Assembly (NCBI RefSeq): GCF_963583255.1
Contig: NC_084807.1
Span: 5,870,872-5,934,871 of the forward strand
Direction of reading: 5' to 3'
DNA length: 64,000 nt
Source of the DNA: Pyrus communis
Taxonomy: Eukaryota > Streptophyta > Magnoliopsida > Rosales > Rosaceae
Each line of letters begins with the position of its first letter. Position 1 is the stretch's first letter. Below, in pieces: positions 18,012-23,991 of the stretch. The translations under genes and the position numbers were made by a program. Below the pieces are notes generated by a model. That model saw only the letters and a program-made list of their open reading frames with translations. It did not search any database and was not told the origin of the DNA.

Positions 18012-21000
18012 ATGACTCTCCACTCCATTGTCATACAGAAGCTTCTCAGCACCAACGCCCATTTGGGCCGCCGTGTCGCCGCCCACCACTTCAAGCAGTT
18101 CACCTACGGAACCCGCAATGGCATGGCCATCATCGACTCGGACCGCACCCTCATCTGCCTCCGCAGCGCCGCCGCGTTCATCGCTGCCCTCGCCCAGCAG
18201 AAGGCCCGCTTCATGTTCGTCAACACCAACTCCCTCTGGGACGAAATCATCGAGCAGATGACCAAGAAGATTGGGTGCTACAGCCCCTCCATGAACATGC
18301 TCTGGCGCACCGGCGGCTTCCTCACCAACAGCCACAGTCCCAAGAAGTTCCGGTCCCGCCATAAGAAGATATGCTTCGGCCCCACCCAGCCGCCCGATTG
18401 CCTTGTGGTTTTTGACACGGATCGTAAATCTTCGGTGATTCTGGAGGCCGATAGGTTGCAGATTCCAATTGTTTCGCTTGTTGATTCGGCAATGCCATTG
18501 GAGTACTATAAGAAGATCACGTATCCAATTCCGGCCAACGAGTCGGTTCAGTTCGTGTACTTGGTGTGCAATTTGATTACCAAGACTTTTCTGCTTCAGC
18601 AGAAGAGGAATGGTGCTGTTGCAGTAGAGGAGGAAACGAGGTGCGTCTCGCGTTGTTTGTGTTTATTGAGTTGCTCTCTACTGAAACTTTGTGGTGAAAT
18701 TTGATTGTGTGTTTTATGTTGAAGGGAGCAAGTGGAGAGTACAGAGGAGAGTAAGAGTACCAACAAGGCTGAGTTGCTTGTGCTTCCTTACAACTTGTTA
18801 CCTATTTCTCCTGGTAACATGGATATACATTTCGTTTTCTTTAATCAATTTCACCAAAAGTAATCAATTGTTAGAGGAATTTCTTTTCGTGCGCGTATGA
18901 GAGCGCAGGTGTTGAAGAAACTGAGGAGCTCTTAGACAAGCTTGTAGTGCTCAAGTTCAATGGAGCTTCGGGCGCAAGCTTGGGATTCCATGGCCCCAAG
19001 TATGCGCTCATACTCAATTACTTGGACTTTTTTCTTTTCTCACTTATTGGATTCTTGGGCTAACTTAGTGTACTTGGTTTGTGCCAGTATTTTTCTAATT
19101 TTTGTTCTTGGTTGGTTTTGTAGCAAATTTACTGTAATTATATTTATTTTTAATTTATTTTTAATGCAGGTCCGCTATTGAAATCCGTGATGGGTTGACA
19201 TCTTTAGGCTTAATTGTTAAGCAAATTGAGGTCGGTTTGAACCACTTTCTATCTGTATTTGTGTTGCTTTCAAAATTGCATAATATATTCTGTGATCTGC
19301 ACTTCAGATACCATAACATCACCGCTCCAATTTCTTTCAGTCTCTCCGTTCTAAGTACAGATGCAGTGTTCCCTTTCTCCTGATGAACACACCAACGACA
19401 CACGAAGATACTGTCAAGGTGAATTTCCTTTGCATTTCCCTGTATGTTCATACTTTTGGATCCTATGGTTTTTTGCTCATATCAGCTTGTGTAATGTAGG
19501 TCGTGGAGAAATATTCCAATTCAAACATTGATATTCATTCTCTGAAGCAGGTTTTTAGCTCCAACTTGTATTATTTTTTAATAGTAGTTTATGTTCTTTT
19601 TTTCTTTCCCTTTTTGGGTTATTGGAAGCTTAGATTGGGAATTACTTGTGAATGTATATCTTCGAATTTATACAGACCCAACAACCACAGCTCAAGTCAC
19701 ATGGAGTAGAGCAGGGTGGTGAAGATGAACTGTATGTCATCTTTCTTAGGCCTTTTCGACATTATTAATTTTTTTAACTAATATATAGATTTACATTTTC
19801 AGAATAGATTTACATTTTCAGAATAGATTAAGTGTTATTGGCTCCTAGTAATTTGCTATGTCTTGTCCTGTGCGAGGATGGGAATTTTTTTGTTCGTCTA
19901 CTTCTCTTTTCGTCTTCATTATGTGCACTGTCTAGGGATCTATCCTTATAGACAACTGTAATATCTAAGTATACCATCCAATGCATATCTCATGCCCATA
20001 TAATCACCAATTGATTTCTTTTGACAGTTAATATATTTATATCAGTTATACTACTTTTGTGTATATGTGAAGATATCCTTCTGGTCATGGAGCATTGTTC
20101 CTTTCCCTTGTGAAAAGTGGAACTCTTGATGTCCTACTATCACAGGTTTGTATAGTAATGCAGCAGTGGTGATACTCTCCATTTTTTATTTATTTATTTA
20201 CATTTTCATCTGAACTTCTGAGAAACATCAATTTGAATCAATCCATAAAGAAGTACCCGGCGAGAGGTGGTATCTGAAGGTAAACTTGACTAAACTTCTT
20301 CAGCTTTCCTTTTCAGGGTAAGGAGTATATCCTTCTGGTTAACTCAGGCAACGTGGCTGCTACAATTGACCCAAGTATCCTTGTCGTCGTTTTTTTCTTT
20401 TATTAGTGTAGTCCTCTTTGATACTTTCATTTATTTTGTGCTTTTGTTCTTTTTTGGGCCCAATCCTAGATCCTTGTGTCCCTTAAGTGGATGTGTAGAA
20501 ATTTTAAACCATTTGATTGAAAACAAAATTGAATATTGTATGGAGGTAACAATTAACCCTTCCTTTTTCTTTGGTTTATTTTTCCATTTTCTGTGGTAAA
20601 TATTGTAATTCCGATTTTACCCTTCCAACAGGTCACACCTACCTTTTATGATTCAGATTTTAACAACATTGGTTCACGCCTACAGAAGTTTGAGGTAAGT
20701 TGTTTAAATGGTTCTATATGACTTTCCTCTTATCTTCAATCCAGTAAAATTGTGATTGGACTGCTCAATGGTAGTATTTTCTAGGGTGGTTAGTTTTTCA
20801 CTTCTTATAATCTTGTGATGCAATTTATAAATATTTGAACTTTTGAGTGATAGTTTAAACTTGAAATTCTTTAATGACTCCACATCTTGTATAGGTCCTA
20901 TTTTCATTTTAAGTTGGTTGTAGGAGTCAGATTCAAGTTTAGGGGAAGCCTTGAAAAGGAAGAAACTGCTTAGATAGATTTGGAAACCTGTTCATAAAGC

Positions 21001-23991: not shown

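Follow-up and report, generated by a model that had tools for sequence, protein, structure and literature searches.

A 64,000-nucleotide stretch of the pear genome (Pyrus communis, contig NC_084807.1, positions 5,870,872 to 5,934,871, forward strand; hereafter the window) contains a single chimeric nuclear gene in which mitochondrial ribosomal protein S2 (uS2m, the product of rps2) and a protein resembling UDP-glucose pyrophosphorylase (UGPase) are encoded in one frame. Taking jointly the chimeric gene, its origin by entry of rps2 into a UGPase gene, and the retention under selection of the UGPase part as a pseudo-enzyme, we place the probability of this reading at roughly 0.8, a figure that leaves the final location of the protein aside. 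S2-UGPase is an old chimera, overlooked as far as the literature searched shows, and a variant of chimeric organelle-to-nucleus transfer.

Structure and distribution of the S2-UGPase gene

The rebuilt gene occupies window positions 18012-23991 on the forward strand and comprises 20 exons and 1887 nt, including a TGA stop codon at 23989-23991, which encode 628 amino acids (aa); every intron is GT-AG and the frame is free of internal stops and frame errors, all as the initial annotation had described. Exons 1 and 2 meet in phase 2 at 18640/18725. Spliced alignment with the 628-aa protein as query returned the identical 20 exons, a query-dependent result rather than an independent prediction. Independent support for the 20-exon model comes from P0001, a Pyrus x bretschneideri protein ('isoform X1') that is also 628 aa long and differs from the window protein by seven substitutions, all within the UGPase part. 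Further, the homeolog on C10 (L009) has the identical 20 exons and phases, with its frame intact. A chance open frame was rejected (P ~1.6e-12 over 418 codons, for independent random codons of the same base composition).

Residues 1-209 of the protein constitute a complete uS2m, with a Ribosomal_S2 domain (PF00318) scoring above its curated cut-off over the first ~200 residues and PDB matches to 6xyw_Ba (residues 1-202) and 9evs_A (residues 1-201). Residues 211-628 align with plant UGPase from approximately its residue 38, the first ~37 UGPase residues being absent. The UDPGP domain (PF01704) covers residues 211-596 at 354.4 bits, and structure prediction suggests that the UGPase fold is retained; the linker at residues 203-223 has a predicted local distance difference test score (pLDDT) below 50.

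A protein search at E 1e-3 or better returned 975 matches, and the best 120 of the 975 are listed; both domains are present in all 120. Fused sources among the matches listed include Malus, Prunus, Fragaria, Quercus, Populus, Citrus, Glycine, Theobroma and Cucumis, as well as Liquidambar, Malania, Camellia, Actinidia, Davidia and Nyssa, which we take together to represent rosids, Saxifragales, Santalales, Ericales and Cornales. At least 13 of the fused matches listed, of 613-666 aa, are encoded on contigs of 2003-2878 bases, which are too short for the gene with its introns and thus look like mRNA. In conceptual translation, the UGPase part contains no Met upstream of exon 5. These results bear out the in-frame fusion and the lack of a separate UGPase start put forward in the initial annotation; the protein search of relatives that it suggested returned the joined order in every match listed, and, given these matches and the homeolog, neither separate loci nor an assembly join, the outcomes it had named as contrary, was encountered.

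It is extremely improbable that two neighbouring genes were merged by prediction or by an assembly join. Merged models do seem to occur here, as in Dovyalis (P0091), where a 902-aa model joins S2-UGPase to ribosomal protein L3. Such a merger for S2 and UGPase themselves is excluded by the joined domains in many genomes (120/120 matches listed), the intron-free contigs, the same structure in the homeolog and the missing Met before exon 5. The next identified gene downstream in the window (25537-26352, forward strand) encodes a bacterial-type L3 (TIGR03625, 244 bits), to which the L3 part of the Dovyalis model is 84% identical over 233 residues. This model suggests conserved gene order combined with merged annotation, and the adjacency fits vertical descent with conserved gene order.

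In databases, the fused protein is labelled 'UTP--glucose-1-phosphate uridylyltransferase'; the first third of the protein so labelled is mitochondrial S2 in poplar, citrus, soybean, cocoa, tea, pear and many others. The earlier claim that no S2-UGPase protein had been described holds for the literature, in that no description of the fusion was found by title or abstract start among open-licence PMC papers, but not for databases, which already hold the protein under that label.

Table 1. Features of the S2-UGPase gene and its surroundings, in window coordinates
Feature	Position	Strand	Description
Exon 1	18012..18640	+	Entire uS2m, codons 1-209 plus 2 nt, intron-less; PF00318 93.3 bits
Intron 1	18641..18724	+	84 nt, phase 2; retention would expose an in-frame stop (18702-18704) and yield S2 alone (230 aa)
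Exon 2	18725..18813	+	Linker and start of UGPase homology; counterpart of canonical UGPase exon 3
Exon 3	18909..18999	+	Degenerate nucleotide-binding loop (canonical KLNGGLGTTMGCTGPKS); last loop residue completed in exon 4
Exons 4-16	19170..22992	+	Mainly catalytic-domain part of putative pseudo-UGPase
Exons 4-8	19170-19230, 19341-19418, 19500-19550, 19676-19731, 20073-20145	+	
Exons 9-12	20317-20374, 20499-20545, 20632-20694, 22269-22301	+	
Exons 13-16	22489-22526, 22609-22684, 22760-22816, 22909-22992	+	
Exons 17-20	23112-23210, 23298-23402, 23803-23874, 23965-23991	+	C-terminal part of UGPase, the most conserved stretch; ends in TGA (23989-23991)
Alternative exon-8 acceptor	20046..20072	+	AG just upstream of 20046; would account for tail of P0099 (truncated 359-aa pear 'isoform X4')

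Intron 11 (20695-22268) is far longer than the others, at 1574 nt, and measures 1157 nt in the homeolog; insertions are possible.

Decay, origin and loss of the UGPase part

Compared with cytosolic UGPase (2icx, 5weg and the pear C7 and C11 loci), the fused part lacks the N-terminal stretch, K360 and several nucleotide-site residues. Sites that are invariant in canonical UGPase are kept in few fused rows: K360 in 3, G88 in 4, D194 in 4 and K401 in 2 of 43, in a table from which Rosa and Rhamnella were left out. We take these four positions to have catalytic or nucleotide-site roles, K360 being catalytic. Judged from these residues, the UGPase part looks catalytically dead, that is, a pseudo-enzyme; the UGPase-like identity given in the initial annotation stands for domain and fold, but these key residues are lost. 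The part has a ratio of nonsynonymous to synonymous substitution (dN/dS) of 0.28, which indicates purifying selection, and constraint is strongest near the C-terminus (conservation along the UGPase part was analysed without the Rosa, Rhamnella and window rows).

Several observations weigh against the overall reading. The fused UGPase part evolves much faster than canonical UGPase, with pair identities of 0.57-0.73 versus 0.91-0.93; polarised changes number 18 in the window copy versus 11 in the homeolog, with 7 of uncertain polarity; and the C-terminal conservation could reflect maintenance of the fold alone. The UGPase part also appears to have been lost or cut in several lineages, in which it would be dispensable. 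Nucleotide-site motifs are more decayed in the window copy than in the C10 homeolog, at loop positions within 18909-18999 and at 20317-20374, where NSDN has become NSGN. The loop is likewise better kept in Malus and Rosa than in the window copy.

The canonical pear UGPase genes (C11, C7) have 18 downstream introns in the same phase series as the fused gene, and one of them (L010, C11:1098500-1106500) has a phase-2 intron at residue 38, the position of the S2/UGPase junction. The shared phases and this intron indicate that S2 occupies the place of UGPase exons 1-2, the host exon structure being kept downstream. In one canonical model (L011), a 7-nt exon close to residue 38 is spurious; the model of L010 diverges at its C-terminus, where a stop falls in frame 8 residues short of the end of the model. 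S2 consists of one exon, which is what the transfer of an organelle gene into the nucleus would lead one to expect. A tblastn search for UGPase exons 1-2 upstream of S2, with the first 45 canonical residues against window positions 10000-18012, gave nothing convincing (best E 0.20).

Nuclear core-eudicot S2 proteins form one clade (support 100/99), apart from 11 other S2 rows from Cycas, Nymphaeales, Chloranthus, Ceratophyllum, monocots, Telopea and Anemoneae; this wide tree comprised 39 of 120 listed S2 rows and 27 fused rows, with no-name and some named rows left out. Lonicera, which we take to belong to Dipsacales, falls among legumes in it with weak support. In a FastTree analysis with 28 canonical UGPase rows, the Arabidopsis UGPase is oddly placed, so that it is uncertain exactly where among eudicot UGPases the fused clade belongs. 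Published accounts describe rps2 as gone from nearly all core-eudicot mitogenomes (PMC11792336) and give the Salix mitogenome without it (PMC5374973). We propose that, in a core-eudicot ancestor, mitochondrial rps2 would have reached the nucleus in intron-less form and entered a duplicated UGPase gene, where it would replace exons 1-2, and that a donor lying where the S2 frame ends would join in phase 2 to UGPase exon 3.

The grass chimera rps14-sdh2 is described as rps14 in an sdh2 intron, with alternative splicing and use of the sdh2 targeting peptide (PMC1543663). As there, a gene for a mitochondrial ribosomal protein has entered an existing nuclear gene, whose splicing it shares; unlike there, S2 has displaced the first exons of its host, what is left of the host looks dead and one open frame spans both. 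The host gene of rps14-sdh2 still yields a working SDH2.

Stand-alone nuclear uS2m (Arabidopsis AT3G03600, 6xyw_Ba, 9evs_A, Capsella P0178) is the same S2 with no UGPase part, and the Capsella protein falls within the nuclear core-eudicot S2 clade, where fused and stand-alone rows are intermixed. The state changes at least 11 times on the S2 tree, a figure into which weak forks and possibly truncated models also enter. Stand-alone S2 proteins of Beta and Ancistrocladus end in ...EMKVVSYSA and ...EMKVVPYSA, resembling UGPase exon 3; in Ipomoea, Ilex, Genlisea and Sarracenia, S2 is followed by the truncated start of a UGPase, and S2 of Rhizophora terminates in a piece resembling the last UGPase exons. 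Such tails look like fossils of the fusion. On the tree, stand-alone S2 is likelier to reflect a derived loss than to be ancestral, and lineages acquiring an earlier stop or transcript end would retain S2 alone; its occurrence in other core eudicots shows that the UGPase part is not required for S2 as such.

Fused genes in Aquilegia and Thalictrum

The fused genes of Thalictrum (P0005) and Aquilegia (P0007), members of Ranunculales and thus outside the core eudicots, nest inside Rosaceae. The clade of seven rows uniting them has support of 100/99 for the whole protein, 98/95 for S2 and 100/99 for the UGPase part, in trees from which Rosa P0112 (441 aa) was left out. Core eudicots without both genera, the group expected beforehand, were rejected by the approximately unbiased test (p 8.5e-5 whole, 1.1e-4 UGPase, 0.0013 wider S2 set). 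For two constraints chosen after seeing the tree, Rosales without both genera was rejected for the whole protein (0.008) and the UGPase part (0.005) and not by S2 alone (0.18; 0.24 in the wider set), and Rosaceae without both genera was not rejected in any set (whole 0.35, S2 0.47, UGPase 0.16), so that the donor may be stem Rosaceae. Further, 11 residues are common to both genera and at least 60% of Rosaceae rows and occur in at most one other row; eleven other groups give 0-5. The two fused proteins are 89% identical and come from separate assemblies, which argues against contamination.

Anemoneae retain a mitochondrial-type S2. Semiaquilegia and Isopyrum presumably belong with Aquilegia and Thalictrum in Thalictroideae. 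The Semiaquilegia mitochondrial gene list lacks rps2 (PMC11949572). A second study did not find the gene in the mitogenome of Isopyrum or in that of Aconitum, a more distant relative; its authors suppose that such lost genes went to the plant's own nucleus (PMC12448783). The Aconitum loss indicates that loss of rps2 is not limited to relatives within Thalictroideae. We consider horizontal passage of the chimera, out of the rose lineage and into an ancestor of Aquilegia and Thalictrum, to be probable, and transfer with replacement of a lost mitochondrial rps2 is the best reading. No report of such a transfer was found by title or abstract start among open-licence PMC papers.

Fate of the fused protein

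Arabidopsis RPS2 reportedly enters mitochondria with no need of a transit peptide (PMC11792336), so import of the fusion could be driven by its S2 part. In this working mode, S2 would carry the chain in without a cleaved presequence and build into the small subunit, and the pseudo-UGPase would ride as an extra non-catalytic domain on its uS2m side. We tentatively favour such carriage on the mitoribosome, which the initial annotation had raised as a possibility, at somewhat less than even odds. The plant uS2m chains among the PDB matches are unfused (219 and 212 aa) and come from cauliflower (9evs) and, we take it, Arabidopsis (6xyw); such chains provide no test of a fused chain on the mitoribosome.

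It is rather unlikely that the whole chain is imported and the UGPase tail then clipped, with S2 alone entering the ribosome. Processing of C-terminal extensions of plant rps2 products is reportedly the subject of a 2002 paper by Perrotta, to go by its title, and the linker of low predicted confidence could be easily cut; purifying selection on the tail, strongest near its far end, would be unexpected for mere waste. Even less do we expect a working UGPase to be delivered to mitochondria by the S2 part: the predicted fold is retained and more of the nucleotide loop survives in Malus and Rosa than in the window copy, but K360 is absent from 40 of the 43 rows and D194 from 39, which makes such delivery very improbable.

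Ribosomes might instead be supplied by S2-only products, through retention of intron 1 or early polyadenylation, the fused form being a minor splice product or acting at another site, such as the cytosol, alongside canonical UGPase. As the initial annotation pointed out, retention of intron 1 would yield S2 alone (Table 1), and an in-frame stop is present in both pear copies; several S2-only database proteins end a few residues from the exon-1 boundary, and the truncated pear isoform X4 is also in favour. Against this stand the intron-free contigs of full fused length, at least 13 in number, and the possibility that the database S2-only frames also derive from genomic contigs. A transcript with a retained stop-bearing intron and 18 further introns downstream should be a target of nonsense-mediated mRNA decay. 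In a Prunus-like protein (P0121), read-through of intron 1 continues into exon-2 sequence in another frame, so the intron-1 stop is not conserved. We regard supply by S2-only products as unlikely.

A wider proposal, doubtful when taken whole, builds on carriage of the domain by the mitoribosome: many core-eudicot mitoribosomes would bear, close to the mRNA exit, a pseudo-UGPase of ~45 kDa attached to uS2m. Its recruitment would date to the core-eudicot stem, more than 100 million years ago, and it would have gone unseen because the available structures are from Brassicaceae, which would have lost it; horizontal transfer from the rose lineage would have replaced a lost mitochondrial rps2 in an ancestor of Aquilegia and Thalictrum. 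If this is true, Brassicaceae-based mitoribosome models would miss the pseudo-UGPase. S2-UGPase is a repeatedly lost case of an enzyme fold retained though catalysis has apparently been abandoned, and the copies in Aquilegia and Thalictrum would represent the transfer of a nuclear gene from one flowering plant to another, an event that can be tested directly and that may have made good the loss of an organelle gene.
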